This document shows positions 15,577 to 48,353 of a stretch of 64,000 nucleotides of DNA, in pieces. Location: assembly GCF_009650215.1 (NCBI RefSeq), contig NZ_CP045851.1, positions 558,001 through 622,000 on the forward strand, read 5' to 3'. Position numbers and translations under genes: made by a program. Within the stretch, counting starts at the first letter, position 1. Each line of letters opens with the position of its first letter. Under the pieces are notes generated by a model, which saw only the letters and a list, made by a program, of their open reading frames with translations, was not told where the DNA came from and did no database searches. Origin of the DNA: Actinomarinicola tropica (GTDB lineage Bacteria > Actinomycetota > Acidimicrobiia > Acidimicrobiales > SKKL01).

Positions 15577-15723
15577 ATGGCAAATGATCCGGTCTGCGGC
15601 ATGGACGTCGACGAGAACAGCGCATCGGCCACGTCGGAGTACGAGGGCCGCACCTACTACTTCTGCGCACTGAGCTGCCAGCGGGAGTTCGAGTCGAACC
15701 CGGAGAAGTACGCGACAGGGTAA
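15577..15723 (+). CDS. YHS domain protein
   Basis: A 48-residue single YHS domain: DPVCGMDVDE, YEGRTYYFCALSCQREFE, NPEKYATG. The three cysteines form the expected soft-metal site. ATG at 15577 follows AGAGAGGAG. Too short for many gene finders but clearly real: the same domain, same length, precedes nuoA at 25993. Such proteins are thought to carry copper or similar metals to membrane exporters. Confidence 0.8.
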   Translation: MANDPVCGMDVDENSASATSEYEGRTYYFCALSCQREFESNPEKYATG

Positions 15724-15849: not shown

Positions 15850-17298
15850 ATGGCTCCGTCGAGAGGTCTCTTCGTCTTGGTCACGAACCCAACTGCAACG
15901 CCCGATGTGGCTAGCGAGGTCGTCGTCGTAGGCGCCGGTCTCGGCGGTCTCCTTGCGGCGCTGCTGCTCGCCGAGGACGGCCACCGCGTCGTCGTCTTGG
16001 AACGCGACGGCGCGGAACCACCCGGAGAGCCCGCTGGGGCGTGGGACGAGTGGGAACGCCGAGGCGTGGCGCAGTTCCGGCAGCTCTACTACCTGCTGCC
16101 CCGCTTCCGTCATGTCGCCGATCGTGAGCTGCCGGCCCTCAGTGCCGCGCTCGAGAAGGTTGCGCTCCGCCACGACCCGCTCGCCGGCATGGCGGGAGCC
16201 GGGGTAGGCGACGACGACGTCGTGACGTTGACGGCGCGGAGGCCGACCGTGGAGGCGGTGGTCGCGCGGCTGGCAGCCATGCATCCAGGCATCGAGATCC
16301 GACGCGGGGTCGTCGTCAACGGCTTGACCCGTACGCCTGCCGCCGCCGGTTCGGTGCCCGACGTCGCCGGGGTGAGCACGGCGATGGGTGAGGTTGCCGC
16401 CAATCTGGTCGTCGATGCCACCGGACGCAGGTCGCCGCTGTCGGCGTGGCTCGCCGCCATCGGTGTGCCGCCGGTGCCCGAGGTCGTCGAGGACAGCGGC
16501 TTCGTGTATCACAGCCGCCACTTCCGCAGTAGCGACGGCGCAATGCCCGCCCTTTCCGCGCCGTTGCTTCGTCACTTCGGGTCGCTGTCCGTGCTCCTCC
16601 TCCCGGCAGAGGCGGGCACCTGGGGCGTGGGGCTCATCACCAGCTCCCGTGACGAGGAGCTGCGTTCGCTCCACCGCCCCGACAGGTGGATGGCGGTGGC
16701 GCGCGCCCTCGGGCCGGTCGTGCGCTGGGTCGAGGGGGAGCCGATCACGGGGGTCGACGTCATGACCCGCCTCGAGGACCGACGCCGCACGCTGTGCCGC
16801 GACAGCCGACCGCTCGTCACCGGTGTTGTCCCGCTGGCGGACGCATGGGCGTCGACGAACCCGACGCTGGGCCGCGGGACCACCCTTGCGATCCTTCACG
16901 CCGTCGCGCTCCGGGACACGCTCCGCGCGGTGGGACTGGCTGACCCTGCGCGGTTCTCGCTCGCCTGGCACGATGTCACCGAGCGCGACCTCGGCCCCCA
17001 CTACGACGCCATCGTGACGGCCGACCGCCACCGGCTCGCCGAGATCGATGCAGCGGTGGCCGGCGTCCCGTACGAGGGCGGCGACGTCGCCTGGCGCGCC
17101 TATCGCATGCTCGAGGACGTCGCCCACCTCGACGTCGAGCTGCTGCGCGGCTGGTACCGCATCGCCGGCCTCATCGCTCCTGGCACCGAGGTGTTCGCGG
17201 CGGACGGGTTCCTCCGGCGAGTAGCCCGCGCCGCTCGCCGGTCGACGGTGGAACCCCTGCCCACCAGGCACGAGCTGATCGCCCTCGCCACCGGTTGA
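15850..17298 (+). CDS. FAD-dependent oxidoreductase (paralogue 3)
   Basis: A 482-residue homologue of the protein at 1134-2591, collinear along its length: VVVVGAGLGGLLAALLLAED, WDEWERRGVAQFRQLYYLLP, VVDATGRRSPLSAWLAAIG, EDSGFVYHSRHFR, WASTNPTLGRGTTLA. It has its own strand and no adjacent cyclopropane synthase. ATG at 15850 gives a 20-residue leader before the Rossmann strand; TTG 15877 would fit the family length better. Substrate unknown. Confidence 0.83.
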   Translation: MAPSRGLFVLVTNPTATPDVASEVVVVGAGLGGLLAALLLAEDGHRVVVLERDGAEPPGEPAGAWDEWERRGVAQFRQLYYLLPRFRHVADRELPALSAALEKVALRHDPLAGMAGAGVGDDDVVTLTARRPTVEAVVARLAAMHPGIEIRRGVVVNGLTRTPAAAGSVPDVAGVSTAMGEVAANLVVDATGRRSPLSAWLAAIGVPPVPEVVEDSGFVYHSRHFRSSDGAMPALSAPLLRHFGSLSVLLLPAEAGTWGVGLITSSRDEELRSLHRPDRWMAVARALGPVVRWVEGEPITGVDVMTRLEDRRRTLCRDSRPLVTGVVPLADAWASTNPTLGRGTTLAILHAVALRDTLRAVGLADPARFSLAWHDVTERDLGPHYDAIVTADRHRLAEIDAAVAGVPYEGGDVAWRAYRMLEDVAHLDVELLRGWYRIAGLIAPGTEVFAADGFLRRVARAARRSTVEPLPTRHELIALATG

Positions 17299-17511: not shown

Positions 17512-18948
17512 TCAGCTGGGAAGTAGCTGGATGCCGTCGAATGCACGGAAGAGTAGTTCTGCGCCGACGCCGACCAGCACCACCAGTGAGCCAGTGATGA
17601 CAGCAGCGAACCCGGCAGTACGGCTGAGAACCGGCACCGGACCGGCGAGGTCGTCGAAGTACATCGGGGCGATCACGCGGGCGTAGTACGCGATGGACAC
17701 CACCGTGTTGATCGCTCCCAGGACCGCGAGCCAGCCGTAGCCTGCGTCGATGGCGGCGGCGAACAGGCTCAGCTTGGCGGCGAAGCCAGCGAGTGGGGGC
17801 ACGCCGATGAAGGAGAGCAGTGTGATGGTCAGCGTGGCGGCCAGGAGCGGACGGGCGCGTGCCAACCCTGCGTAGGTGAGTCGGTCGGTGCGTCCCCGGA
17901 GTTGTACGACGACGCCGAAGGCTGCGACGTTGGCGAGCACGTAGGCGAGGAGGAAGTACAGCAGCGACGGGAGCGCGAGTTCGCTGCGTTGTACGGCGAC
18001 GATGGCCAGCAGGCCGTAGCCGGTCTGGGAGACCGAGGACCAGCCCAGGAGGCGTCGCACGTCGTCCTGCCACAGCGCCGCCAGGTTGCCGAGCGTCATC
18101 GTGGTTGCGGCGATCACGGCGACGAGCGGTCGCCATCCGAGCCCGTCCGGCGGCAGGACCAGCACCAGCCGGGCGAGGAACAGGAACGCGCCGACCTTGG
18201 GCACGGACGTCACGAACGCGGCGACGGGCGCGGGCGCACCCTCGGCGACATCGGGCATCCACGCGTGTGCCGGCACGGCGCCGAGCTTGAACGCCACCGC
18301 AACGACGACCAGGGCGGCGGCCACGGCCAAGCCGGGTCCACTCGTCGAGGTCAGGCCGGTGCGTAGGCCGGGCAGCGTCGTCGTTCCGCCGAGACCGAAG
18401 AGGTAGGCGACGCCGATCAGCATGCTGGCGCTGGTGAGGGCCCCGAGCAGGAAGTACTTGATGCCCGCTTCAGCCGAGGCCCGGGACAACCGGTGGTAGG
18501 CGGTGAGGACGTAGCCGGTCGCAGACGACAGCAGCATCGAGACGACGAACTGCTTGAGGTCCGTCGCACCGGCGAGGAGCACGGCGCCGAGGGCGGAGAA
18601 CAGCAGCAGGGTGTAGTACTCGCCGCTGCGGGGATCGCTGCGGAACCAGGGAAGCGAGAGCGCGATCACGGCTGCGGTCGCCGCCAGGACGATCAGCTTG
18701 GCCCAGACGGCCGGCAGATCACGGGCGTAGGTCTCGGCGAACGTGTAGGCCTCGGGCCCGTCCAGCATCGGGATCGTGGTCGCGGCGGCGACGGCGACCG
18801 TCAGCAGGGCCAGGACGGCTGCGCCGCTCTGGAGGCGTCGAGGCACGGCCAGTGCGTAGAGCAGGACGACAACACCGCCGACGACGAGCACCAGCTCGGG
18901 GATGACGTCGCCCAGCATGGACGCCATGTCCATGCCTGCCGAGCCCAT
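17512..18948 (-). CDS. nuoN: Complex I-like antiporter subunit NuoN
   Basis: A ~478-residue, multi-helix MrpA/D-type proton-translocating subunit (proton_antipo_M domain): YHRLSRASAEAGIKYFLLGA, KLGAVPAHAWMPDVAEGAPA, VGWSSVSQTGYGLLAI-type helix, and LSFIGVPPLAGFAAKLSLF. The conserved membrane lysines and glutamate regions typical of NuoN are visible. Last gene of the reduced complex I operon. ATG at 18948 chosen; TTG 18960 is possible. No terminator is obvious beyond the convergent region. Confidence 0.9.
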   Translation of the reverse strand: MGSAGMDMASMLGDVIPELVLVVGGVVVLLYALAVPRRLQSGAAVLALLTVAVAAATTIPMLDGPEAYTFAETYARDLPAVWAKLIVLAATAAVIALSLPWFRSDPRSGEYYTLLLFSALGAVLLAGATDLKQFVVSMLLSSATGYVLTAYHRLSRASAEAGIKYFLLGALTSASMLIGVAYLFGLGGTTTLPGLRTGLTSTSGPGLAVAAALVVVAVAFKLGAVPAHAWMPDVAEGAPAPVAAFVTSVPKVGAFLFLARLVLVLPPDGLGWRPLVAVIAATTMTLGNLAALWQDDVRRLLGWSSVSQTGYGLLAIVAVQRSELALPSLLYFLLAYVLANVAAFGVVVQLRGRTDRLTYAGLARARPLLAATLTITLLSFIGVPPLAGFAAKLSLFAAAIDAGYGWLAVLGAINTVVSIAYYARVIAPMYFDDLAGPVPVLSRTAGFAAVITGSLVVLVGVGAELLFRAFDGIQLLPS

Positions 18949-18978
18949 GGTGTCGTCCAACTCGTCGACCGCCGTGCG

Positions 18979-20493
18979 CTACCGGCCGACGAAGGGGCCG
19001 GCGAAGGTGTCGATGACGTCGAGCAGCAGAGCCGGAGCGACGCCGATCCCGATGATGAGGAGGATCAGGGTGCCGAGGGTCAGGCGCTCGATCCACCCGA
19101 GGTCCGGCCACTCGGTCCACCGTTCCGGGAGTGGGCCGAGGAAGACCTGCTGGAGCATGCGCAGGAACAGCGCTGCGGTGATGACGATGCCGAGCAGACC
19201 GATGCCGGCGAGCCAGGGGTAGACGGCGAGGGCGCCGGCGAAGACCTGGAACTCGGCGACGAACCCGGCAAGCCCGGGGAGGCCGAGGCTGGCGAAGGCC
19301 GCGACGACGGTGATGCCGGTGAGCGCCGGGGCTCGGCCGGCGAGGCCGCCGTACGCGTCCATCTCGTAGGTGTCGCCTCGGGCGAGGATCGACCCGCTGA
19401 CGAGGAACAGCGCGCCGGTGATGAGACCGTGCGCGACCATCTCCAGCGTCGCGCCGGTCAGGGCCAGTGCCTGGGCGTCCTCCTGTCCGGCGATGCTGGC
19501 GCCCGCAGCCGCCAACCCGAGCATCACGTAGCCCATGTGGTTGACGCTGGTGTAGGCGATGAGCCGCTTGAGGTTGGTCTGGGCCATGGCGACAAGGGCG
19601 CCGTAGACGATGGAGACGACGGCGACCACGCCGATCGGGAACGCGAAGCGAGCGAACGTCTCGGGCTGCATGGACATGAGGACCCGGACGAAGCCGTACG
19701 TGCCCATCTTCAGCAGCACGCCGGCGAGGACGGCCGAGGCCGGTCCGGGCGCGTCGACGTGGGCGGGCGGGAGCCAGGTGTGGAAGGGGACGACCGGTGT
19801 CTTGACCCCGAAGCCGATGAAGAACCCGAGGAAGACGAGGGTCGCGTACACCCCGCCTGCGGGCAGCGGTTGCTGGCGGATGATCTCGGCCATGTCGAAG
19901 GTCCGTGGTTCGGTGGCGAGGTACAGGCCGAGGATGGCGAGCAGGAGAGCGAGCGAACCGGCGAACGTGTAGACGAAGAACTTCAGGGCCGAGCGTCGGG
20001 CGTCACCGTGCCCCCAGGCGCCGATCAGGAAGTAGATGCCGACCAGGCTCAGGTCCCAGAACACGAAGAACAGGAACAGGTCGAGTGACAGGAAGAGGCC
20101 GACCGACACGCCCTCGAGGAAGAGCATGAGCGCGTAGTAGGGGCCCGGCCGGCCCCGCAGGTCGACCGGATAGGCGATGGCGACAGCGAACACGAAGGCG
20201 GTCATGAGGGCGAGTGGGAGTGACAGCCCGTCGATGCCGACCCGGTAGCCGACCCCGAGCGTCGGGATCCACTCGCTGGACTCGACGAGCTCGAAGCCGC
20301 CACCGCCGTCGAAGCGGGCCCAGGCGCCGAGGAGGATGAGCAGTGGCACGGCGCCGACGACGCTGGCGACCAGACGGAGCCGGGACGTCCAGGGATCGTC
20401 GCGTGCCGGGTCGACGTCGGATCGCAACCGCCGGGGGAGGAGGGCGAACACGGCGGCGGCAGCGATCGGCAGGAAGATGGCGAGGGTCAGCAC
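18979..20493 (-). CDS. nuoM: Complex I-like antiporter subunit NuoM
   Basis: A 504-residue polytopic protein of the NuoM/MrpD class: LFLFFVFWDLSLVGIYFLIG, FGVKTPVVPFHTWLPPAHVD, PGPASAVLAGVLLKMGTYGF, LKRLIAYTSVNHMGYVMLGL. The HTWLP..H..AP-type loop and lysine helices are the family marks of a proton pump. GTG at 20493 after GGAGCT. It is 29 bp downstream of nuoL and 30 bp upstream of nuoN on the same strand. Confidence 0.92.
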   Translation of the reverse strand: MLTLAIFLPIAAAAVFALLPRRLRSDVDPARDDPWTSRLRLVASVVGAVPLLILLGAWARFDGGGGFELVESSEWIPTLGVGYRVGIDGLSLPLALMTAFVFAVAIAYPVDLRGRPGPYYALMLFLEGVSVGLFLSLDLFLFFVFWDLSLVGIYFLIGAWGHGDARRSALKFFVYTFAGSLALLLAILGLYLATEPRTFDMAEIIRQQPLPAGGVYATLVFLGFFIGFGVKTPVVPFHTWLPPAHVDAPGPASAVLAGVLLKMGTYGFVRVLMSMQPETFARFAFPIGVVAVVSIVYGALVAMAQTNLKRLIAYTSVNHMGYVMLGLAAAGASIAGQEDAQALALTGATLEMVAHGLITGALFLVSGSILARGDTYEMDAYGGLAGRAPALTGITVVAAFASLGLPGLAGFVAEFQVFAGALAVYPWLAGIGLLGIVITAALFLRMLQQVFLGPLPERWTEWPDLGWIERLTLGTLILLIIGIGVAPALLLDVIDTFAGPFVGR

Positions 20494-20521
20494 GGGAGCT
20501 CCATGAGCGTCGGTGTCGGGT

Positions 20522-22522
20522 TCAGCTCGTCAGGGCCAGCAGGACTGCGGCGGCGACGACGAAGCCCACCGCCACGATGGCGTAGTAGTGGTGGGCTTGG
20601 CCGGTCTGCAGCTTGCGGCTCGCATGGCCGCCGACCCCGACGAGCCATGCCGAGCCCTCGACCGCACCGTCGACGACGCGGTCGTCGGCGACACCGGAGG
20701 CGTCGGCGCCCTTCAGCGTGAGGGCCGCGAGTGCACGGACGGCGCCGTCGACGGAGCGCTCGTCAGCCGTGCGGGTCCCGCGGGCCCCGAGGCCCACCGC
20801 CCCAGCCAGGCCGTGCACGAAGGCGTCGAGGCTCCACTCGGCGCGTCCCCAGACCACCCGGGACAGCCTCCGGGTGAGCTGCTCGGCGCCACGGACCCCG
20901 GCGTCCACGACCCGGTCGTCGAAGCGGGCGAGGCCACGGGAGAGCGCCAGCGTCGGCTCGACCACGGCCACCCGGCTCAGCCGAGCGAGGCCGTACCAGT
21001 CGGCGACCACCGCCGCTCGACCCTCGCGTGCTGACGGGTCCAGGCGGTGCGCTCGCCACGCCCGGAACACACCGGCGGCGGCGGTGCCGGTGACGGCGAG
21101 GGTCACGGTCAGCTCCCACAGGGGGGCTTCGTACAGCTGGCCGCCCGTGACCCGCTCCAGGACCTCGCTGCTGCCCGGGAGCCACAGCACGGAGAGCGCC
21201 ACGGTGATGGCGGCGAGGACGCCGAGCGACCAACGTTCCGCTGTCGTCGGTTGTGCCTCGACTCGGCGACCGATGTCGTTGTCGGGACCGCGCCCGAAGG
21301 CGAGGACCTGGTACCGGAAGGCGTACACGACGCTCAGGGCGCCGGCGACGAGCACGCCGAGGAGGAGCCACACGCTGCTGTGCGCCGCGGCCGCACCGAT
21401 CTCCTGCTTCGACCAGGCTCCGCCGAGCGGCGGGATGGCGGCGAGGGCGGCGACACCCACGAGGGACAGCCCAGCGGTGCGGGGCAGCACCCGTCCCAGC
21501 CTCATGGCGCCCAGGTCGCCGCTGCCCGCCGCATGTATCGCCACCCCGGCGCCGAGGAACAACAGGGACTTGAACGCGGCGTGGGTGACGAGCTGAGCGC
21601 CGGCGGCGGCGGTCGAACCGGCGCCGACGGCCACGAACATCAGCCCGTACTGCGCCGACGTGGAGGCGGCCAGGACCCGTTTGGCCTGGGACTGCAGCGC
21701 GGCGCTCACCCCGCCCGCCAGTGCGGTCGCCATCCCGAGGCCGGCGACGGCGGGCAGGAACCACCCGACCGGCTCAAGCGAGGGCGCCACACGGATGAGG
21801 AGGTAGGCGCCCGCCGAGACCAGGGTCGCCGAGTGCAGGAGCGCCGACACCGGTGTCGGGCCCGCCATCGCCGAGAACAACCACGGCGAGAACGGCAGCT
21901 GGGCCGATTTGGCTGCGACGGCGAGCAGCAGGCCTGCGGCGAGGGCATCCTGGCGGGCGCCGTCGACGGCGGCGAGGTCGTCGTATCCGAGCCCGCCCGT
22001 CGCAGCGAACGTCGTGCCAGCGGCCACGTAGAGCCCGAGGTCACCGATCCGGGTCGTGATGAACGCCTGGGCCGCAGCGGCACCGTTGGACCGTTCCCGC
22101 CAGCCGTGCCCGATGAGTGCCCACGAGAACGCACCGATCAGCTCCCACGCCAGCAGCAGGGTGAGCAGGTCGGACGCCACGACGAGGAGCTCCATGGCAG
22201 CCACGAAACCGAGCATGAGGGCGAGCAGCCGGGTCCGGCCCTCCTCGACGGTGGCGGCCGCGTAGGCCAGCACGGGTGCCGCCACAACCGGGATCAGGAC
22301 CACCATGACCCGGGCGAAGCCGTCGACCGCGACGCTCAGCTCGAGGGTGTCACTCCAGCGCCACGCCAGCCTCGGCTCGGCCCAGGCCGCCACCATGGCG
22401 GCGGCGAGGGTTGCGACCGCTGCGCCGACCGCAGCGGCACCGACGCCGTGGGGACGGCGGCGCAACCCGAGGACCGACGCGGACCCCAGGACGGGAAGGA
22501 GCACGAGGAGGGCGACCGTCAT
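20522..22522 (-). CDS. nuoL: Complex I-like antiporter subunit NuoL
   Basis: A 666-residue protein with the NuoL core (FITTRIGDLGLYVAAGTTFA, SAQLPFSPWLFSAMAGPTPV, SALLHSATLVSAGAYLLIR, HAAFKSLLFLGAGVAIHAAG) followed by a long carboxy extension (~500-666) of amphipathic helices ending in one hydrophobic helix, the place of the lateral helix in true NuoL. The extension here is charged and unusual in sequence. The ATG overlaps the nuoK stop (ATGA). Confidence 0.9.
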   Translation of the reverse strand: MTVALLVLLPVLGSASVLGLRRRPHGVGAAAVGAAVATLAAAMVAAWAEPRLAWRWSDTLELSVAVDGFARVMVVLIPVVAAPVLAYAAATVEEGRTRLLALMLGFVAAMELLVVASDLLTLLLAWELIGAFSWALIGHGWRERSNGAAAAQAFITTRIGDLGLYVAAGTTFAATGGLGYDDLAAVDGARQDALAAGLLLAVAAKSAQLPFSPWLFSAMAGPTPVSALLHSATLVSAGAYLLIRVAPSLEPVGWFLPAVAGLGMATALAGGVSAALQSQAKRVLAASTSAQYGLMFVAVGAGSTAAAGAQLVTHAAFKSLLFLGAGVAIHAAGSGDLGAMRLGRVLPRTAGLSLVGVAALAAIPPLGGAWSKQEIGAAAAHSSVWLLLGVLVAGALSVVYAFRYQVLAFGRGPDNDIGRRVEAQPTTAERWSLGVLAAITVALSVLWLPGSSEVLERVTGGQLYEAPLWELTVTLAVTGTAAAGVFRAWRAHRLDPSAREGRAAVVADWYGLARLSRVAVVEPTLALSRGLARFDDRVVDAGVRGAEQLTRRLSRVVWGRAEWSLDAFVHGLAGAVGLGARGTRTADERSVDGAVRALAALTLKGADASGVADDRVVDGAVEGSAWLVGVGGHASRKLQTGQAHHYYAIVAVGFVVAAAVLLALTS

Positions 22523-22824
22523 CCCTTGAGCTTCCGCAGCTTCTCGGTGATGTCGGCCCGGCGCACCCGGTACACATTGGTGATGAGGGCGAACCCGAGC
22601 GCCATCTCGATCGCCATCACGGTCATGAACACGATCGCCAGCATCTGCCCCTGCGGGTTGCCTCCAGTGCTGAGTGCCCAGAGCGCGATGAGCGCGAGCA
22701 GGGCGCCGTTGATCATCAGCTCGAGGCCCATCATCAGCATGACGAACGACTGCTGGCTGATCGCCCCGTAGAGGCCGACGGCGAACAGCGCCGCGGCGAC
22801 AACGAGCACGGTTTCGAGGGTCAC
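22519..22824 (-). CDS. nuoK: Complex I-like subunit NuoK
   Basis: A 101-residue three-helix protein: GAISQQSFVMLMMGLELMIN and TVMAIEMALGFALITNVYR. The two membrane glutamates of NuoK (in GLELMIN and AIEMALG) are present, so the proton path seems intact. It overlaps both neighbours by 4 bp. Confidence 0.92.
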   Translation of the reverse strand: MTLETVLVVAAALFAVGLYGAISQQSFVMLMMGLELMINGALLALIALWALSTGGNPQGQMLAIVFMTVMAIEMALGFALITNVYRVRRADITEKLRKLKG

Positions 22825-23390
22825 GGCGACTCCAACTCCTCGATCTCCAGCGCCGGCTCCCGCGACCCCTCATCGGACGTGCCGAACCGGCCGTTGCGGC
22901 TGGCCAACGCGATCGCGCCGATCATCGTGGCGAGCAGGGCGACGCCGGCGGTCTGGAACACCAGCATCGAGTCGCCGAGCAGCTCGAAGCCGAGCTCGGC
23001 GGTCGCATCGACCGAGGCATCGACCGGCTGGTCGGGGAAGTCGGCCGTGAGGGCGACGACGGACAAGCCGGCGAACGACACGACGCCGGCGGCCACGGCG
23101 AAGCGGTGCTGGTGCACCATGAACATCGGGTTCAAGCCGGCGGGGTTCATCATGAACATGACCATCACGACCGCCATGATCAGCATCTCGCCGGCCATCA
23201 TCAGGATCAGCACCACACCGAGGAACTCCGCAGCCAGCAGCACGAGGATGGCGCCCACGCCGACGAACGAGGCGAGCAGCCAGAACGCAGCCCTGACCAT
23301 GGAGTCGGTTCGGAACACCAGGTACCCGGTGACCACACTTCCGGCGGCGAAGCACCAGAACAGCACGTCCACGACCAACGACCGGTTCAC
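22821..23390 (-). CDS. nuoJ: Complex I-like subunit NuoJ
   Basis: A 189-residue membrane protein of the NuoJ class: RAAFWLLASFVGVGAILVLL, AAEFLGVVLILMMAGEMLIM, and a Met-rich run VVMVMFMMNPAGLNPMFMVH. The conserved third helix normally reads YVGAIMVLF; here it is MAGEMLIMAVVM, with an extra membrane Glu. GTG at 23390; overlaps nuoH and nuoK by 4 bp each. Confidence 0.85.
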   Translation of the reverse strand: MNRSLVVDVLFWCFAAGSVVTGYLVFRTDSMVRAAFWLLASFVGVGAILVLLAAEFLGVVLILMMAGEMLIMAVVMVMFMMNPAGLNPMFMVHQHRFAVAAGVVSFAGLSVVALTADFPDQPVDASVDATAELGFELLGDSMLVFQTAGVALLATMIGAIALASRNGRFGTSDEGSREPALEIEELESP

Positions 23391-24322
23391 AGCAGGAGCG
23401 CTCCGCTCACGAAGATGTTGACCAACGCCAGCGGGATGAACACGGCCCAGCACGCGACCACGAACGGTTCGATGCGGACGCGTGCCACGAGGTGCCGGCT
23501 GCCGACCATCACGACGAGCAGGAACAGCGTCTTGAGTGCCATCCAGGCCGGTCCAGGCAGCAGCGGACCCCACCAGCCACCGAGGAACGCCGCTGCTCCC
23601 ATCGAGGCGATCGCGAAGAGCATGGCGGCCCGGGCCAGCTCCCAGGCGAGCCGGTCGGTGCCGGCGTCCTCCGCCGACGTTCCGCCGACGAGGTCGGCGC
23701 CGTCGGGCAGGTTCAACGGGCCCCAGAAGCTCACCCCGATGCCGACCATGAGGTAGATCGGCAGCCCCAGCGGCTGTCGGACCACGTTCCAAAGGTCCTC
23801 CTGGGCCTGGACGATGTCCATCACCGCCAACGACTCCGCCGGGAGGGCGGTGGCCAGCATCGCGAGCAGGAACGGGATCTGGAGGGACAGTGCCTGGGCG
23901 CCGTAGCGGTACGCCCCGATCAACGGAAACAATGAGTTGGGGGACCAGCCATGGAGGAACACGGCGATCATCACGAACGCGATGGCGGTGGCGAAAACGA
24001 CGAACCCGGTGCTCGGGTCCGCCACCGCAGCGCCGGGGCCGACAGGGACGACGGCGAGCCCGGTGGCGGCAAGCCCACCCAGCAGACCCGGGGCGAGTGC
24101 CCATCCAGGCGCATCGGGGCGCTCGGTGCGGCGTCGCCGCTGGGTGGCGAGGACCGCCACGGTGCGGAGCGGATCGAGGAGGACCGCGCCGAGGTCGCTG
24201 CGGCCCGTTCCGCCGGCCAGGCGACCGGCGGTGCCGTCGATGACCGCCACGACGTAGACGCCGACCGCCATGGCGACGGCCACGGCGCCGACCGCTGCAC
24301 CAGGTTCCAGGTAGGCCCTCAC
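23387..24322 (-). CDS. nuoH: Complex I-like subunit NuoH
   Basis: A 311-residue membrane protein of the NuoH class, with IGAYRYGAQALSLQIPFLLA (the quinone-site amphipathic loop corresponds to RxxAQxxSYE in true NuoH, here YRYGAQALSLQ, so the acidic residue is replaced), LPDGADLVGG and the glutamate-poor carboxy part. In respiratory complex I this subunit forms the quinone chamber with NuoB/NuoD. The lost acidic residues suggest changed quinone or electron chemistry. GTG at 24322 overlaps the NuoB/D-like stop. Confidence 0.85.
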   Translation of the reverse strand: MRAYLEPGAAVGAVAVAMAVGVYVVAVIDGTAGRLAGGTGRSDLGAVLLDPLRTVAVLATQRRRRTERPDAPGWALAPGLLGGLAATGLAVVPVGPGAAVADPSTGFVVFATAIAFVMIAVFLHGWSPNSLFPLIGAYRYGAQALSLQIPFLLAMLATALPAESLAVMDIVQAQEDLWNVVRQPLGLPIYLMVGIGVSFWGPLNLPDGADLVGGTSAEDAGTDRLAWELARAAMLFAIASMGAAAFLGGWWGPLLPGPAWMALKTLFLLVVMVGSRHLVARVRIEPFVVACWAVFIPLALVNIFVSGALLL

Positions 24323-25635
24323 GGGACCGGCAGCTCCCGGTCCGGGGAGCGCATGGCCAGGACCTCGTCGGTGTCGAGGTCCAGGCTCACCACGGTTGAC
24401 ACCGCGTCGCCCCATTCCATGCCTTCCAGCACGGCCGGAAGCAGCGGGAGTAGCCGCTGCGCCGGTGTGTCGCCGACGGCGAGCCGGCCCCGCGGCGACT
24501 CCAAGGGTGCCTCGGGATCGTGGCGGCGATCGCCGGCACGACTGGCCAGCTGCAGAGCCTGGTGGGCTTCGGCGAGCCGCTGGGCGATGCGGGAGCGGAC
24601 GTCACCGCCGTCGTGGACGATCGGTTCGAAACCGATTCCGACGTAGGCGGGATCGGCGACTCGCTCGTCCTGGTCGACACCGGACGCGCGGGCGACGGGT
24701 CCGGTGGCCGTGCCCTCGAGCTGGTCGGCCAGAATCGGGCCGACCCCCCTGGTGGCCCAGCCCAGCATCTGTGACCGGCGCAGGAGATGGTGCAACCGCT
24801 GCACGTCCTCGCCTCGGTCCGGGTGGACGTGTTTCGCGAGTCGGAGAACCCGTCGCGCGAGCGAAGGCAGTTGCTGCGCAACGAGCGCCGAGGCGATCGA
24901 GCGAAGGTGCGACCGGGCACGCTCCAGCTCCAGGACCGACACCAGTACCGGGGTGTCGAGAGCGTTATGGAAGGGGGTCCGGAGATCGGCCTCGAGTGTC
25001 GCCGGATCGGTGGTCACGACGACGTTCGCCTGCTGGACCACGTCGCCCTGGAGCAGGATCTCGAGCACGAGACCGGTCGGGAAGCGCGCGAAGAACGGGC
25101 CGATGCGGACGGTGAGCTGGTCGAGGCGCAGGCCGTCCCGGTCCGGTGCGACACCAGCCATCGGGCGCCCGTAGGGCACCCCACCCGTCATCCCCGTCCC
25201 GCCCTGCCCGTACGGGCCGACACCACGCCAGGGGGCGGCCTCCTCGTCCGGCATCGCCGGAGGACTGGAACGGAGCGCGCCGACGAGCAGCCGACGGTGG
25301 GTCTCGAGTACGGCGTCGACCAGGCGGGTGGGATCGTCCTCGTGCACCTCCACCGTCGTTGGCGCTGGTGGAGCGCTGCGCGAACCCAGCGACCACCACA
25401 GGCTCACGCGTGGTCGTGACAGCCCGTCGTGCAGGCGTGCCACCTCCGTGGCGAGCTGAGCGGGCACCCAACCGGCAAGCAGCAGGACGTTCGCTGCAGC
25501 CGGGGAGTCGACGAGGTGCAACCGATCCTGAAGCAGGAGGCCATCCACGTGGGCCCGGGCACCGGCGCCTGCCACGGCGAACACCGGCACGGGGGCTCGG
25601 GCCGCCACACGCCCGACGGCGGCCCTCAGGCCCAC
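24319..25635 (-). CDS. Cysteine-free NuoB/NuoD-like fusion
   Basis: A 438-residue protein standing where nuoB, nuoC and nuoD normally lie. The amino part (LLLQDRLHLVDSPAAANVLL, LAGWVPAQLATEVARLHDGL) resembles NuoB's PRQADVxxVxG..P.L strand, but the chain contains no cysteine at all, so no N2 iron-sulfur cluster can form. The middle and end follow NuoD: GGVPYGRPM, APDRDGLRLDQLTVRIGPFF, LEGTATGPVARASGVDQDER, DGGDVRSRIAQRLAEAHQAL. GTG at 25635, overlapping the nuoA stop. It may be a structural plug or a coupling subunit for a non-FeS partner. Confidence 0.75.
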   Translation of the reverse strand: MGLRAAVGRVAARAPVPVFAVAGAGARAHVDGLLLQDRLHLVDSPAAANVLLLAGWVPAQLATEVARLHDGLSRPRVSLWWSLGSRSAPPAPTTVEVHEDDPTRLVDAVLETHRRLLVGALRSSPPAMPDEEAAPWRGVGPYGQGGTGMTGGVPYGRPMAGVAPDRDGLRLDQLTVRIGPFFARFPTGLVLEILLQGDVVQQANVVVTTDPATLEADLRTPFHNALDTPVLVSVLELERARSHLRSIASALVAQQLPSLARRVLRLAKHVHPDRGEDVQRLHHLLRRSQMLGWATRGVGPILADQLEGTATGPVARASGVDQDERVADPAYVGIGFEPIVHDGGDVRSRIAQRLAEAHQALQLASRAGDRRHDPEAPLESPRGRLAVGDTPAQRLLPLLPAVLEGMEWGDAVSTVVSLDLDTDEVLAMRSPDRELPVP

Positions 25636-25988
25636 CGCAGCGCGCGCTCCCGCCAGGCGTAGAGCACCCCCACGAGCAGGATCGTGATGAACATGCCCAT
25701 CTCGGCGAGGGCGATGCCACCCTCCCGGACGAACACGACGGCCCACGGGTACATGAACACCATCTCCATGTCGAAGGCCAGGAACAGCAGCGCCATCACG
25801 TAGTAGCGAGCGTGGAACCGACTCCACGCATGGACCTCCGGTTCGTGGCCGCCGAGGAACGGCGTCCGCTCCGGGGCCGTCTCGCCCACGCCGGCGATGG
25901 CATCGCTGGCCGATCGGATCGCCACGAACGCGATCGTGGCGAAGACGAAAACGGCGAGCGCCGCGCCGACCGGCCCCAGAACGGACAT
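25626..25988 (-). CDS. nuoA: Complex I-like subunit NuoA
   Basis: A 120-residue three-helix protein with the NuoA signature: PFLGGHEPEVHAWSRFHARY, YYVMALLFLAFDMEMVFMYP, WAVVF. The family has a Cys-Gly pair (PYECG) in the loop; here it is PFLGGHE, again without cysteine. The acidic FDMEM helix is kept. It starts 4 bp after the YHS gene and overlaps the NuoB/D-like start. Confidence 0.9.
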   Translation of the reverse strand: MSVLGPVGAALAVFVFATIAFVAIRSASDAIAGVGETAPERTPFLGGHEPEVHAWSRFHARYYVMALLFLAFDMEMVFMYPWAVVFVREGGIALAEMGMFITILLVGVLYAWRERALRWA

Positions 25989-25992
25989 GGCG

Positions 25993-26139
25993 CTAGGTGT
26001 AGTCGTCGGGGTTCTCGCGGAACTCCTCTGCGCAATCCTGGCTGCAGAAGTAGTACGTCGATCCGTCGTGGTCGACGGTGGCCACCGCGTCTGCTTCGGC
26101 GATGGTCATCCCGCACACCGGGTCCTTGACATCGGGCAT
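25993..26139 (-). CDS. YHS domain protein at head of nuo-like operon
   Basis: A 48-residue YHS domain: DPVCGMTIAEADAVATVDHD, TYYFCSQDCAEEFRENPDDY. Nearly the same size and motif as the one at 15577. It is separated from nuoA by only 4 bp, so it is part of the complex I-like operon; a soft-metal protein in that position ties the operon to metal handling. ATG at 26139. Confidence 0.8.
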   Translation of the reverse strand: MPDVKDPVCGMTIAEADAVATVDHDGSTYYFCSQDCAEEFRENPDDYT

Positions 26140-26219: not shown

Positions 26220-27770
26220 TCAGCGCACGTAGGACACCACGGTCACCATTCCCGCTTCTGCGTGGTAGATGTTGTGGCAGTGGAGAGCCCACGCCCCGGG
26301 GTTGTCGGCGTCGAACTCCACGACCACGGTCTCCATCGGCGGCACGATGACCGTATCCTTTCGAGCCCCGGGCTTTCCGTCCGTAGTGACCTGGAACGTG
26401 TGGCCGTGCAGGTGGATCGGGTGCCACATCATGGTGTCGTTGCGGAAGACCATCCGAATCCGTTCGCCCTCGCGAACCGGCATGGAGGTGCCGTCCTCCG
26501 CCGGGGCGTCGAGAGCCCACTGGTATGCCTGCATGTCGCCCCGCATGCTGATCTCAAAGGTGCGGTCGGGCGTCTCGGGGCGCAGCCTGACGTCGTCGGC
26601 GGCGACGAGATCCTCGAGCCTGAGCAGATCACCGTCCAGCTCGCTTGGACGTGACCCTGCTGTCGGGATCGTCTCCGGCCCGGAGCGCAGGAGCGCCCGC
26701 GCCCCGCCGTCGCCGCCCTCGACCGTGGCCACCAACGGCAACCCGGAACCTCCAGGGACGTCGACCATCACGTCGTATCGCTCACCCATGCCGATCACGA
26801 GCGCGTCGACCGTGACGGGCCGGACCGGGAAGCCGTCCGTGGCGACCACCGTCAGCCTGGCGCCGCCGACCGCCACCCGGAACGGGGTGTCGGAACCAGC
26901 GTTGACCAGTCGGAGTCGAAGCGGGCCAGCGCCTACTGGCAGCTCGGGCGCGGACTTGCCGTTGACCAGGTAGAGGGGGTAGTCCACGTCGCTGGTGTCG
27001 CCGCCGAGCGGGCGGCCGGGGGAAGCCATCTCCATGTCGTCCATCGCTGCGGCGCCCATGTCCATGTCGTCCATCGCACCCATGTCGTGCCCGCCACCGC
27101 CGCCGGTGAGGCCTTCCAGGACCTCGTCGGGTTCCTGTCCGAGTCCGTCGAGCCAGTCATCGAGGAGCACCGTGACGTCATTCGCGCCGTCTTCGGCGGG
27201 GGCGAGCTCGTCCTCGACGATGAGGGCACCGTAGAGCCCACGATCGAGCTGCGTGCCGGTGTGGGGGTGGTAGAAGTAGGTCCCGGCGTCGGGCACGGTG
27301 AACTCGTACGTGAACGAAGCACCCGGCGAGATCGCCTCCTGGGTCAGATCCGGCACTCCGTCCATGTCGTTGCGGAGCGCGATCCCGTGCCAGTGCATCG
27401 TCAGTGGCTCGGGAAGGCCGTTTCGCACGACGGCCCGCAGGACCTCGCCCTCACGAAGCCGGATCTCCGGGCCGGGGACCGCCCCGTTGAACGCCCAGGT
27501 CTCGACCGTCTGCCCTCCGAGGTCGACCGATGCCGGGGCCGCGGTCAACTCGACGTCACGCACCGTCCCGTCGCTCGTGCGGCGAGCGCGCTCAGCGGCG
27601 AGGACGGGCTCGTCTTCGGGGCCGATCGGCTGCACGGCGGACGCTGGGGTGGTTGCCTCGGTCGCCGGCGCCGCGTCGTCCCAGGGTCGCGTCGTGCCGG
27701 CCCACACCGCTGCGGCGGTGAACAGCAAGGCTGTCGCGATCGCGAGACGTCGCAAGGATCGATTCACCAT
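26220..27770 (-). CDS. Multicopper oxidase, copper-resistance type
   Basis: A 516-residue exported enzyme: signal helix (LAIATALLFTAAAVWAG), three cupredoxin domains, and all four copper motifs: HWHG, YFYHPHTGTQ, HPIHLHGH and HCHNIYHAEAGM, whose last Met is the axial type-1 ligand. A Met/Asp-rich stretch (GAMDDMDMGAAAMDDMEM) in the middle is typical of cuprous oxidases such as CueO or CopA. It would oxidise Cu(I) outside the membrane using O2. Divergent from the rhodanese gene, with a strong operator between, and followed by the YHS-nuo genes on the same strand. Confidence 0.92.
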   Translation of the reverse strand: MVNRSLRRLAIATALLFTAAAVWAGTTRPWDDAAPATEATTPASAVQPIGPEDEPVLAAERARRTSDGTVRDVELTAAPASVDLGGQTVETWAFNGAVPGPEIRLREGEVLRAVVRNGLPEPLTMHWHGIALRNDMDGVPDLTQEAISPGASFTYEFTVPDAGTYFYHPHTGTQLDRGLYGALIVEDELAPAEDGANDVTVLLDDWLDGLGQEPDEVLEGLTGGGGGHDMGAMDDMDMGAAAMDDMEMASPGRPLGGDTSDVDYPLYLVNGKSAPELPVGAGPLRLRLVNAGSDTPFRVAVGGARLTVVATDGFPVRPVTVDALVIGMGERYDVMVDVPGGSGLPLVATVEGGDGGARALLRSGPETIPTAGSRPSELDGDLLRLEDLVAADDVRLRPETPDRTFEISMRGDMQAYQWALDAPAEDGTSMPVREGERIRMVFRNDTMMWHPIHLHGHTFQVTTDGKPGARKDTVIVPPMETVVVEFDADNPGAWALHCHNIYHAEAGMVTVVSYVR

Positions 27771-27886
27771 GTGGGGTCCCTTCTCGGTCCAACTGTCCAG
27801 ATCATCGCTCTGAGCGCACGCTCCACCATCCGGTGCCAGTACGGGGTCGCTCGTGGGTGACTACGGAGTGAGGGCGACCGGAAGTG

Positions 27887-27905
27887 CTACGACCTGTTGT
27901 CGTAG
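27887..27905. promoter_or_regulatory. BlaI-like operator, oxidase/rhodanese divergent promoter
   Basis: CTACGACCTGTTGTCGTAG, a palindrome matching the consensus except one inner base. It ends 10 bp before the rhodanese ATG and is 117 bp upstream of the multicopper oxidase. Confidence 0.72.
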
Positions 27906-27915
27906 CGTTCCCGCC

Positions 27916-28443
27916 ATGTCCGATGATCTCGACCCCGCCGGCCGCCCGGCCGAACACAGCGGACGTACGCTCGTTGTCGCCGGCGCCGTCGCCGCCGCAC
28001 TGTTCCTTGCGTATCTCGTCCTGGGCATGCCGGGCATGGATCACGGTCCGTCCGGCAACCAGGGTTCGATGGATTCGATGGACCACGCTGCCATGGCTGA
28101 CGGTGGACTCTCGGTCGACGAGTTCCAGTCCCGAATGGCCCAAGGAGCGTTCGTGGTGAACGTGCACCGGCCCTACGACGGCGAGATCGACGGCACCGAT
28201 GCGTCCATCCCCTACGACGAGATCGCCGGCGACCCGAGCCTGCCGTCTGACAAGGGCACCCCGATCCTCCTGTACTGCCAGACGGGCCGGATGTCGGCGA
28301 CCGCCTCCGATTCACTCGTCAGCGCCGGCTACACCGACGTGGCACACCTGCGAGGTGGGATGGATGCGTGGGAGGCGGCAGGCATGCCCGTCCTCCGCCA
28401 GCAGTCTGACCCAGACGGTCGCGCCGATCGGTCGGCGACTTGA
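27916..28443 (+). CDS. Membrane-anchored rhodanese-domain protein
   Basis: A 175-residue protein: one transmembrane helix (TLVVAGAVAAALFLAYLVLG), a short Met/His linker (MPGMDHGPSGNQGSMDSMDH), then a rhodanese domain with the active-site loop LYCQTGRMSATAS and ending HLRGGMDAWEAAGMPV. The catalytic Cys is present, so sulfur (persulfide) transfer outside the membrane is likely; the Met/His linker could hold copper. ATG at 27916, directly after the operator. Confidence 0.85.
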   Translation: MSDDLDPAGRPAEHSGRTLVVAGAVAAALFLAYLVLGMPGMDHGPSGNQGSMDSMDHAAMADGGLSVDEFQSRMAQGAFVVNVHRPYDGEIDGTDASIPYDEIAGDPSLPSDKGTPILLYCQTGRMSATASDSLVSAGYTDVAHLRGGMDAWEAAGMPVLRQQSDPDGRADRSAT

Positions 28444-28465
28444 GCAGGGGTCCCGGCGTGCGAGC

Positions 28466-28484
28466 CTACGACGACGTGTCGTAC
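28466..28484. promoter_or_regulatory. BlaI-like operator, DUF305 gene
   Basis: CTACGACGACGTGTCGTAC, two mismatches to the consensus arms, 23 bp before the ATG of the DUF305 lipoprotein. Confidence 0.7.
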
Positions 28485-28507
28485 GAACGCTCCGGAAGGC
28501 TCACCCC

Positions 28508-29152
28508 ATGACCACCCCCCGCCATCGCCGCCCCCTCCTCATCCTGGTCGCCGCCGCCTTCTTCCTCGCGGCGTGCGGCGCGGACAGCAGCGACGACCCT
28601 GCCATGGCGCCTCCGGCTGCAGAGCAGGACGGGGCCGACGGCTCCGGCGCAGCCGAGCCGAACCAGGCCGACGTCGAGTTCACGAAGGCGATGATCGTCC
28701 ATCACGAGCAGGCCATCGAGATGGCTGCGCTCGCGGAGGACCGGGCCGAGGCCGAGGAGGTGCGGTCGCTGGCCACGCGCATCGGCGAGGCCCAGCAACC
28801 CGAGATCGATCGGATGCAGGAGTGGCTGGAAGCCTGGGGTGAGGATGCCGCTGGCGCGAGCGGCGACATGGACCATGGCGACATGGACATGGGCGGCGGC
28901 GACAGCATGGGGATGATGTCCGAGGAGGACATGGGGCAGCTGGAAGCTGCGAGCGGCCCCGAGTTCGACCGCATGTTCCTGGAGATGATGATCCAGCACC
29001 ACCGAGGAGCCATTTCGATGGCGCGCGAGGTCCAGATCGACGGCTCCCATCCCGACGTGCTCGCTCTCGCGGAGGATGTCGTCGCCGATCAGGAGGCCGA
29101 GGTCGAGGAGATGGAGCAGCTCCTCGCAGACTTTGGTGCGGCAGCCGAGTAG
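28508..29152 (+). CDS. DUF305 lipoprotein
   Basis: A 214-residue lipoprotein: signal and lipobox (LILVAAAFFLAACGAD), then two DUF305 ferritin-like repeats, each with its metal motif: FTKAMIVHHEQAIEMA and FLEMMIQHHRGAISMA. A Met/Asp/His-rich linker (MDHGDMDMGGGDSMGMM) joins them. The family is linked to copper resistance and sits with multicopper oxidases in actinobacteria. ATG at 28508; the operator lies immediately upstream. Confidence 0.9.
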   Translation: MTTPRHRRPLLILVAAAFFLAACGADSSDDPAMAPPAAEQDGADGSGAAEPNQADVEFTKAMIVHHEQAIEMAALAEDRAEAEEVRSLATRIGEAQQPEIDRMQEWLEAWGEDAAGASGDMDHGDMDMGGGDSMGMMSEEDMGQLEAASGPEFDRMFLEMMIQHHRGAISMAREVQIDGSHPDVLALAEDVVADQEAEVEEMEQLLADFGAAAE

Positions 29153-30090: not shown

Positions 30091-31400
30091 TGATCCTTGG
30101 CTTGGCCAGCTGAGGTTACGCGGCTGGCAGCGCGGCGGTCGTGGTGGTGGTCATCTCCTCGGTGGGGGTGTCGATCTGGGCCATGGATTCTTCGCTGAGG
30201 TAGCGGCGTTCGGAGATGGCCCAGTCGTCGTGTTGGTCGAGCAGGACGGCGCCGACGAGGCGGATGGCCGAGGCGTCGTCGGGGAAGATCCCGACCACGT
30301 TGCTGCGGCGCTTGATCTCCTTGTTGATCCGCTCGAGCGGGTTCGTGGATGCGATCTTGCGCCAGTGCGCTCGGGGGAAGCCGGTGTGGGCCAACACGTC
30401 GACCTCGGCGTCGGCCAAGATCGCGGCGGCCTTGGGGAACTGGCCTTCGAGGATCCCGACGACCTCATGGAGCTGGGACCGGCACGCCTCGGCGGAGGGC
30501 TGGGCGAAGATCGTGCGGACGGTTGCGGCGACCATGTCCTTCGACGCGGAGGGCACGGTGCCCAAGATGTTGCGCATCAGGTGCACCTTGCAGCGCTGCC
30601 ACGAGGCGCCGGCGAGCACGCGTGGGATCGAGGCCTTCAGCCCGGCGTGCGCGTCGGAGATCACCAGGCGCACACCGGCGAGGCGCCGGTCCTTGAGACC
30701 CCGGAGGAACGCGGTCCAGAACACCTCGTCCTCGCTGTCGCCGACATCCACGCCGAGCACCTCGCGGTCGCCGTTCGCGGTGACACCGGTGGCCACCACG
30801 ACAGCCCTCGAGACGATCCGGTGGTTGATGCGGGCCTTGATGTAGGTGGCGTCCAGATACAAGTAGGGGAACTCGACGTGATCGAGCGTCCGGGCCCGGA
30901 ACACGGCGACCTCTTCGTCGATGCCCGCGCAGATCCGCGACACCGTCGACTTCGACACACCCGACTCACACCCCAGCGCCTGGACCAGATCATCGACCTT
31001 CCGGGTCGAGGTCCCGGTCGTGTACGCGGTCATGATCACGCCCCACAGGGCCTTGTCGACCCGCCGGCGGGGCTCCAACAGCGACGGGAAGAACGACCCG
31101 ACCCGCACCTTGGGGATCCGCAGCTCCACATCGCCCGCAGGAGTGGACAACAGCCGGGACCGAGAGCCGTTGCGCTGGTTGGTACGGGAGTCGGTTCGCT
31201 CGTGCGGCGCCGCCCCGATCGCCGCAGTGAGCTCGGCGTCGATCAGCTCCTGCATCCCCGCCTCGAGAAGCCGACGGAACAGCTCCTTGCTGTCACCGTC
31301 GCCCAAGCGCGCCAACAGGTCAGCAACGCGGGCATCATCGTCATGGGTCATCGCGTGGTTCCTTCCAGTGAGTGCTTTCGCAGGTCTCACCAAGGATCAC
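30091..31400 (-). mobile_element. IS256-family insertion sequence
   Basis: About 1.31 kb carrying one mutator-type transposase. The ends show the inverted repeat GTGATCCTTGG (left, from ~30090) and CCAAGGATCAC (right, to ~31400). The bases flanking each end (agtaggtct and gcgatggcc) do not match, so no target duplication is visible; either old decay or a later rearrangement. Confidence 0.85.
30116..31351 (-). CDS. IS256-family (mutator-type) transposase
   Basis: A 411-residue DDE transposase. Catalytic residues: Asp in YLYLDATYIKA, Asp in LVISDAHAGLKASI, Glu in NPLERINKEIKRRSNVVGIF; also the CxxH-type WQRCKVHLMRNIL. Full length for the family and uninterrupted, so the element may still move. 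ATG at 31351 (MTHDDDARVADLLARLG); the frame extends to 31393 inside the terminal repeat. Confidence 0.93.
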   Translation of the reverse strand: MTHDDDARVADLLARLGDGDSKELFRRLLEAGMQELIDAELTAAIGAAPHERTDSRTNQRNGSRSRLLSTPAGDVELRIPKVRVGSFFPSLLEPRRRVDKALWGVIMTAYTTGTSTRKVDDLVQALGCESGVSKSTVSRICAGIDEEVAVFRARTLDHVEFPYLYLDATYIKARINHRIVSRAVVVATGVTANGDREVLGVDVGDSEDEVFWTAFLRGLKDRRLAGVRLVISDAHAGLKASIPRVLAGASWQRCKVHLMRNILGTVPSASKDMVAATVRTIFAQPSAEACRSQLHEVVGILEGQFPKAAAILADAEVDVLAHTGFPRAHWRKIASTNPLERINKEIKRRSNVVGIFPDDASAIRLVGAVLLDQHDDWAISERRYLSEESMAQIDTPTEEMTTTTTAALPAA

Positions 31401-48268: not shown

Positions 48269-48353
48269 GCGCAGCGGCGGCGGGCCGGCCGGCGCCTCGC
48301 CGTCCCAGCGGTGGCGCGATGCCGTGGTCGTTCGGCGCAGCCACAGGGTCAAG

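Follow-up and report, generated by a model that had tools for sequence, protein, structure and literature searches.

Complex I (NDH-1, NuoA-N) and the Mrp antiporters are the closest described systems to an operon of nine tightly packed genes, YHS-nuoA-[NuoB/D-like fusion]-nuoH-J-K-L-M-N, on the minus strand (26139-17512) of a 64,000-nucleotide stretch of Actinomarinicola tropica contig NZ_CP045851.1 (hereafter the window). The operon has in common with complex I seven homologous membrane subunits (A, H, J, K, L, M and N), a NuoD fold and a NuoB-like segment, but it lacks the NADH module, the ligands of the N2 iron-sulfur cluster and the quinone-loop motif, and it possesses methionine-rich (Met-rich) A, J and K subunits together with metal-binding elements. 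Mrp likewise employs the same antiporter and NuoJ/NuoK-type subunits without redox chemistry, and its cation path is proposed to run through the same site (PMC7419157); the operon differs in having NuoA, NuoH, NuoM and the NuoB/D fusion and in placing Met where Mrp has Glu. Pfam finds no MrpE/F/G-type gene among the nine operon genes of the window, and the flanks of relatives were not scanned for them. As judged from its sequence, the operon is a structural variant within the complex I/Mrp superfamily that lacks the defining redox and quinone hallmarks of complex I, as well as the Mrp features tested. We lean towards the interpretation that its products (A-BD-H-J-K-L-M-N) form a complex I-type assembly devoid of redox chemistry, which handles Cu(I), and possibly Ag(I), in a manner coupled to proton flow and is probably an exporter.

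The operon belongs to a widespread family. GTDB contigs were scanned with an alignment of five fusion sequences, which gave 127 relatives, of which 80 were kept; 82 non-duplicate loci were used for gene order and missing-subunit searches, and 92 for residue and motif counts. Relatives occur in actinobacteria, Chloroflexota, Halomonadaceae, Salinisphaera, relatives of Roseobacter and Aurantimonas, Burkholderiaceae, Stutzerimonas and metagenome-assembled genomes labelled as other phyla, which places the operon in Actinomycetota, Chloroflexota and alpha- and gammaproteobacteria; it is also found on plasmids and is frequent among halophiles. An even sample of 396 Actinomycetota genomes contains 34 with a family match at 1e-20. 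Matches to the fusion in 66 of 99 genomes are mostly partial and NuoD-like, with good ones beyond the host only in G033, G069 and G005 (residues 12-303). The order A-BD-H-J-K-L-M-N is kept across the 82 loci up to the contig limits, with a few genes of L106 and L113 that appear split in two. Decay of an ordinary nuo operon can be rejected because both this order and the new residues described below are conserved across phyla. A maximum-likelihood tree of 73 NuoH rows separates 51 family from 22 canonical members by a branch with 100/100 support; according to a warning of the program, the three plasmid rows of HMBD type meet the canonical ones on long branches. One Azospirillum match (H62) was dropped because it belongs to a hydrogenase-type cluster that has a NuoB of its own. 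In the annotated plasmid copies, the genes for the membrane subunits mostly bear the names of subunits of NADH-quinone oxidoreductase, complex I or a proton-conducting transporter, so the operon is easily overlooked.

Queries for NuoB, CD, E, F, G and I found no match inside the operon at any of the 82 loci. Beyond its bounds there are a NuoB/NuoD cluster on the opposite strand (L114), a NuoI-like match (L073) and NuoG-like matches (L112, L122 and L126). The preliminary description, made from the window alone, had proposed a reduced complex I-like operon with these nine genes in this order and place and without NuoC, E, F, G or I; the open reading frames, the Pfam matches and the 82-locus search all agree with it, and nuoB, nuoI and nuoEFG, which by its own criterion would have counted against it if found in the same transcript in relatives, are absent from inside the operon. 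In the window, genes from nuoA to nuoL overlap their neighbors by 4 to 10 nucleotides, and the spacings from YHS through nuoN are +4, -10, -4, -4, -4, -4, +28 and +18 nucleotides. Above-cut-off Pfam matches cover YHS, A, H, J, K, L, M, N and the C-terminal half of the fusion. Antiporter-type subunits also occur in bicarbonate/CO2 systems, and the preliminary description had named a bicarbonate module as one option. Such a module is very improbable here: the above-cut-off matches of the operon genes are to complex I and YHS-type (YHS/zf-FCS) families only, the window operon has no DabA partner by Pfam (relatives' flanks were not scanned for one), no gene supports the proposal, and the evidence favors copper instead.

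The fusion is a genuine relative of NuoB and NuoD that has the NuoD fold and lacks both the cluster motifs and the quinone-loop motif. A direct match of its N-terminal half to NuoB is weak (E = 0.23). When the N-halves of 91 of the 92 family sequences are compared with 23 canonical NuoB proteins by hhalign, the probability is 96.4 over 34 columns (SPR..VAG..DQMPxPR), and it is on this short alignment that the NuoB-likeness rests; the D-halves (88 of 89 sequences) match 18 canonical NuoD proteins with a probability of 98.0. A structure model built from 42 sequences has a mean predicted local distance difference test (pLDDT) score of 88.7 and a predicted template modeling score of 0.88. Its residues 160-427 superpose on NuoD of mycobacterial complex I (8e9h_D; Z = 26.4, root-mean-square deviation 2.7, 256 residues, 24% identity), and its Foldseek and VIA-align matches are to NuoD-type and related large subunits, a comparison that barely probes the NuoB-like half. 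The Gly/Met linker between the halves contains many invariant columns, yet it is modeled with low confidence. The possibility that the fusion is a misread frame was considered and can be ruled out because the same gene order is found at 82 non-duplicate loci and the model has this mean pLDDT; the hhalign likeness to NuoB also speaks against it. The D-half is shortened in G005 and in the Roseobacter/Aurantimonas group, and the fusions of L043 (9840-10871), L122, L124 and L134 are without much of it. Even this half may thus be dispensable in some lineages.

As had been noted for the window, the fusion has no cysteine with which to hold an N2 cluster. Cysteine-free fusions occur in 15 of the 92 family members, this one included, and no column is conserved as Cys: the highest frequency is 0.14 (42 rows), so that ligands of the group 4 [NiFe] hydrogenase type are not seen either. 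None of the 92 fusions contains CC or GCPP, the ligand motifs of NuoB, compared with CC in 22/23 and GC[PA]P in 22/23 canonical NuoB proteins (the patterns G[ST]C and GYxHR are poor tests, as few canonical proteins have them; G[ST]C occurs in 4/23). The quinone-loop motif GPxHP of NuoD survives in one of the 92, versus 19/19 canonical proteins. In NuoH, none of E. coli E157, D213, E218 and E241 is retained at its position, and E220 has become Asp, which upholds the earlier remark that an acidic quinone-loop residue was lost and extends it to more than one acid. The metal domains that adjoin this old quinone module could mean that copper on YHS or HMBD replaces the iron-sulfur centers and that Cu(I)/Cu(II)-quinone exchange drives pumping. 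We regard such a copper redox machine as quite improbable, given the near-complete loss of GPxHP, the changed quinone-side acids of NuoH and the absence of a conserved electron path.

The most distinctive changes are in the membrane subunits. Family members, 75-92 per subunit, were aligned with canonical proteins from E. coli and, for the most part, from the same order (canonical rows: 23 A, 23 H, 21 J, 22 K, 21 L, 7 M and 7 N). The Met content of the family versus the canonical proteins is 8.5% vs 2.4% in NuoA, 8.6% vs 2.1% in NuoJ and 9.0% vs 5.1% in NuoK, with no enrichment in H, L, M or N. Columns with at least 95% Met in the family number 4 in A, 13 in J and 4 in K, of which 0, 1 and 1 are also Met in the canonical proteins; the corresponding numbers are 0, 2, 3 and 1 in H, L, M and N, of which 0, 2, 2 and 1 are shared. 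If a new Met column is defined as one with at least 95% Met in the family and less than 50% in canonical proteins, then 19 of the 20 such columns fall in A, J and K, which make up 399 of the 2230 family columns (18%), and NuoJ has 12 that are near-invariant. The motif F[DE][MV]EMx[FY]MYPWA of NuoA is present in 89/92 family versus 0/22 canonical proteins, and the MMxxEMxxMxxxM-type signature of NuoJ in 81/85 versus 0/20. The new Met residues flank the retained acids NuoA E75, NuoK E35 and NuoK E73, and NuoJ has acquired a Glu, E68. On a helical wheel of NuoJ, M65, M69, M72, M76 and M80 lie within 80 degrees, and M64, M78 and M81 lie outside. NuoA has lost Tyr/Glu and gained two His residues (H53, 96%; H59, 100%). 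The loss of its loop Cys, which had been put forward as evidence, is uninformative: both other NuoA proteins of the host and that of E. coli read ESG there too.

The new Met columns of A, J and K fall in the region through which Mrp is proposed to pass Na+. On that path in Mrp, E706 is essential and is the counterpart of NuoJ Y59, and the cation site is completed by MrpC His residues and the Glu of MrpD transmembrane helix 5 (TM5) (PMC7419157). The Y59 position is Met in 99% of 85 family rows, and the matching TM5 Glu of NuoN (E. coli E133) is lost in 75/75 members. Because Y59 is Met and this Glu is Leu in 69 of the 75 and never Glu, the hard-cation site of the Mrp type is predicted to have become thioether-rich here. 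Thioethers suit Cu(I) and Ag(I). The proton-pump subunits had been described as looking intact, which holds for NuoL, where the equivalents of E. coli E144, K229, K342 and K399 are retained, and for the lysines of NuoM (K234 and K265, with E407 also kept) and NuoN (K217, K247 and K395); it does not hold for the missing NuoN Glu or for NuoM E144, which is Asp in 72/76.

At least one metal-binding element (a YHS gene, an HMBD in the fusion, a His-rich NuoJ tail or a His/Met-rich linker) is present at 87 of the 92 loci, and two of the five without one have a NuoJ cut by a contig end. A YHS gene stands directly upstream of nuoA at 28/92 loci by tblastn match positions, mostly in actinobacteria and Chloroflexota; a survey of this neighbor, called for by the preliminary description, therefore finds it in part of the family, with the other loci mostly carrying one of the other elements. 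HMBD heavy-metal domains are inside 4 of the 92 fusions, in Rubrobacter, Paracoccus and Thioclava plasmid copies, and they lie between the fusion halves at the position of the Gly/Met linker of the window (two stretches in L131 and three in L132). A His-rich NuoJ tail, with at least four His per 20 residues, occurs in 54/92, mostly proteobacterial (the longest run is eight His, in L085), whereas canonical NuoJ tails have at most two per 20 residues. The His/Met-rich linker is found at seven loci, of which three also have HMBD and four are Rhodococcus, Mycobacterium and Arthrobacter plasmid copies. YHS and a His tail coincide at two loci, and YHS and HMBD at none. The distribution looks like one of exchangeable metal-capture modules on a common chassis. 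The 48-residue YHS protein has no evident signal peptide, the fusion takes the place of the cytoplasmic arm and the C terminus of NuoJ is presumably cytoplasmic by topology, so these elements look cytoplasmic, a location that favors export as the direction of transport.

Copper context was scored with 24 query proteins, and YHS and CueR were not counted as copper genes. At least one copper gene is present at 31 of the 59 family loci of at least 15 kb (38/82 overall), against 0/20 canonical nuo regions (20 kb, same order) and 0/20 other 20-kb regions from family-bearing genomes (one with a CueR match), a contrast that is indicative only, since the canonical control regions are largely taken up by the nuo operon itself. 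Twelve more loci were taken from the 34 positive Actinomycetota genomes; L205 duplicates L131, which leaves 11. Eight of these match copper genes at 1e-5 when coverage is not filtered, the matches of L202 being fragmented and those of L203 weak in part. At six of the 11 (L196, L197, L198, L199, L206 and L207), P-type ATPase, CsoR and HMA/CopZ matches are upstream of nuoA on the same strand. L196 has copA, csoR, copZ and nuoA in an unbroken row, separated as called by 1, 10 and 65 nucleotides. The CsoR protein there has the Cys, His, Cys pattern that we take to be the CsoR motif, the ATPase passes TIGR01511 (636.5 bits, cut-off 397) and a DUF305 protein passes the CopM model; RicR and CopZ models are best matches, yet fall below their cut-offs. 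Copper or heavy-metal genes also adjoin the operon on Halomonas, Rubrobacter, Paracoccus, Roseivivax, Mycobacterium and Arthrobacter plasmids. Linkage to a Cu(I) sensor, chaperone and ATPase, as in a copper regulon, is thus seen in relatives, at the six later loci; the window has a multicopper oxidase and CopM as neighbors instead. The earlier view that the YHS and multicopper oxidase neighbors are meaningful is sustained, and an ion module with a different partner, which it had suggested, is most likely.

From the homology, the lost cluster and quinone ligands, the Met signature, the metal-binding elements and the copper gene context, we infer transport, the identity of the metal, coupling and direction. 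Cu(I) would be captured in the cytoplasm by the lineage-specific element, whether YHS protein, fusion HMBD, NuoJ His tail or His/Met linker, and would enter near the former quinone-module junction. It could then pass a Met/Glu-lined hinge formed by NuoJ TM3, NuoA TM2 and NuoK, and leave to the periplasm, where the multicopper oxidase, CopM or CopB can take over. The energy must come from an ion gradient because there is no electron path; inward protons through L, M and N may pay for Cu(I) exit, as they do for Na+ export in Mrp and for Cu(I) in CusA. The latter uses protons to drive Cu(I) export and has a methionine ladder (PMC7558416); its fold and subunits are unrelated to the operon, and it serves as an analogy only. 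The fusion would be a structural plug or a metal-gated lid rather than an enzyme, and NuoJ E68 may stand in for the lost NuoN Glu.

Several observations weigh against this reading. The loss of the NuoN TM5 Glu in 75/75 members means that exact Mrp-type coupling cannot hold, and the details of coupling would not be those of Mrp. With a pLDDT of 66.8, the NuoJ model is of too low a quality to locate the Met residues in three dimensions. The copper queries were drawn from family loci, and many of these loci are close relatives. No copper gene besides YHS or CueR was found at 28 of the 59 loci of at least 15 kb, no copper-gene match at three of the 11 later loci (L200, L201 and L204) and none by annotation in the plasmid regions L140, L141 and L142; the L133 and L135 regions are ambiguous. 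The 28 loci without copper neighbors, the retained proton residues of L and M and the many halophiles that carry the family would also fit an ordinary Na+ or K+/H+ antiporter for salt or pH, with an incidental linkage to copper. This explanation is improbable in view of the Met at the Mrp carboxylate position, the 19 new Met columns, the HMBD, YHS and His tails and the operons with csoR and copZ.

The main rival to a Cu(I)-carrying assembly is a copper-gated ion device, in which Cu(I) bound at the YHS, HMBD or His elements and the Met hinge would open or close proton or cation flow through L, M and N under copper stress, without copper itself being carried. The same copper context and element evidence applies to it, and an independent exporter (a P1B ATPase) often already adjoins the operon. 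It is not obvious, however, why a sensor would need the 12 near-invariant Met columns that NuoJ has newly acquired on both membrane sides, and we consider gating unlikely, if still deserving of serious attention.

The 3.7-Mb, single-contig host genome (G000) contains an essentially full nuo set elsewhere, a question that the preliminary description had raised, with matches to A, B, C/D, F and H-N at ~208-224 kb. A second cluster at ~225-236 kb matches A, B, C/D and H-N. It resembles the operon in having no NuoF match; it differs in having NuoB, C, D and I and in showing no Met signature in its NuoA, which is 45% identical to the window NuoA over 83 residues, or in its NuoJ; both proteins are among the 22 and 20 canonical rows in which the two signatures are absent. 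PF01512, which also covers proteins other than the complex I subunit, is present in 20/20 genomes examined, and is not proof of a full complex I in them. A paralogous copy of the operon is present in the host at 3013 kb, with a fusion that is 78% identical and a YHS gene directly before nuoA. Two open reading frames just upstream of that YHS gene resemble, by eye, the histidine kinase/LuxR pair of the window, which was identified by Pfam. Rhodanese-like and DUF305-like open reading frames near this copy (L040, 3006-3026 kb) look paralogous to those at 26-29 kb of the window, as if an island had been duplicated.

Table 1. Positions of the operon genes, their notable segments and neighboring genes in the window
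Feature	Position (strand)	Details	Profile match
YHS-domain protein	25993..26139 (-)	48 residues; first gene of operon	PF04945, 49.5 bits (cut-off 30.3)
NuoA homologue	25626..25988 (-)	120 residues	PF00507, 93.9 bits
NuoA Met motif	25740..25775 (-)	TM2, residues 72-83; FDMEMVFMYPWA	
NuoB/NuoD-like fusion	24319..25635 (-)	438 residues; GTG start; no Cys	PF00346, 42.5 bits (cut-off 24)
Fusion, NuoB-like half	25246..25635 (-)	Residues 1-130; without N2 ligands	
Fusion, Gly/Met linker	25162..25233 (-)	Residues ~135-158; WRGVGPYGQGGTGMTGGVPYGRP	
Fusion, NuoD-like half	24352..25146 (-)	Residues 164-428; without quinone-loop His	
NuoH homologue	23387..24322 (-)	311 residues	PF00146, 139.1 bits
NuoJ homologue	22821..23390 (-)	189 residues; start chosen from 4-nucleotide overlap	PF00499, 75.5 bits
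NuoJ Met/Glu strip	23112..23201 (-)	TM3 and next loop, residues 64-93: M64 M65 E68 M69 M72 M76 M80 M81 M89 M91 H93	
NuoK homologue	22519..22824 (-)	101 residues; M29, M31, M70 new; E35, E73 kept	PF00420, 60.6 bits
NuoL homologue	20522..22522 (-)	666 residues	PF00361
NuoM homologue	18979..20493 (-)	504 residues	TIGR01972, 473.6 bits (cut-off 263.8)
NuoN homologue	17512..18960 (-)	482 residues	TIGR01770, 338.3 bits (cut-off 332.6)
Multicopper oxidase	26220..27770 (-)	Directly upstream of operon	Pfam Cu-oxidase families above cut-off
Rhodanese-domain protein	27853..28443 (+)	Between multicopper oxidase and CopM genes	PF00581, 39.1 bits (cut-off 22.2)
CopM-family (DUF305) metallochaperone	28454..29152 (+)	Nearby, divergent	NF049983, 102.3 bits (cut-off 90)

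For the multicopper oxidase, copper_res_A is the closest NCBIfam model, with 278.4 bits that fall short of its cut-off of 478.95. A Mutator-family transposase (30116-31393), about 1 kb past the CopM gene, is consistent with a mobile island. A second, stand-alone YHS gene (15577-15723, plus strand) is located beside an FAD-dependent oxidoreductase (15850-17298), and farther away a heavy-metal P-type ATPase with an HMA domain (48349-50790) adjoins an NhaA-type antiporter (46620-48344). Among relatives, Xanthobacter plasmid pXAUT01 retains only nuoA and the start of the fusion (L136, 11642-12333) beside an annotated bilirubin oxidase and a rhodanese gene, an apparent operon remnant. In Halomonas KO116, the ergothioneine genes egtB/egtD are directly 3' of nuoN (L130, 22117-24389), and in L085 an FGE-sulfatase/DinB protein (17884-19371) that belongs to a cluster of 14 loci occupies the same place.

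No description of such a system was found among the papers listed by searches of an open-access library of 5.39 million papers, a scope outside which most subscription papers and all preprints fall. If copper is carried, then the operon would represent a new class of copper transporter. We put at about even the chance that this class exists as a redox-stripped complex I that acts as a proton-driven Cu(I)/Ag(I) pump, with a Met-relined Mrp-type path and exchangeable cytoplasmic capture modules, in several phyla and on plasmids. A long-standing question about complex I is how events in its quinone module are coupled to distant proton movement. A natural redox-free relative with a metal-relined hinge would open the ion half to study on its own, and it would put to the test the idea that complex I arose from cation/proton antiporters.

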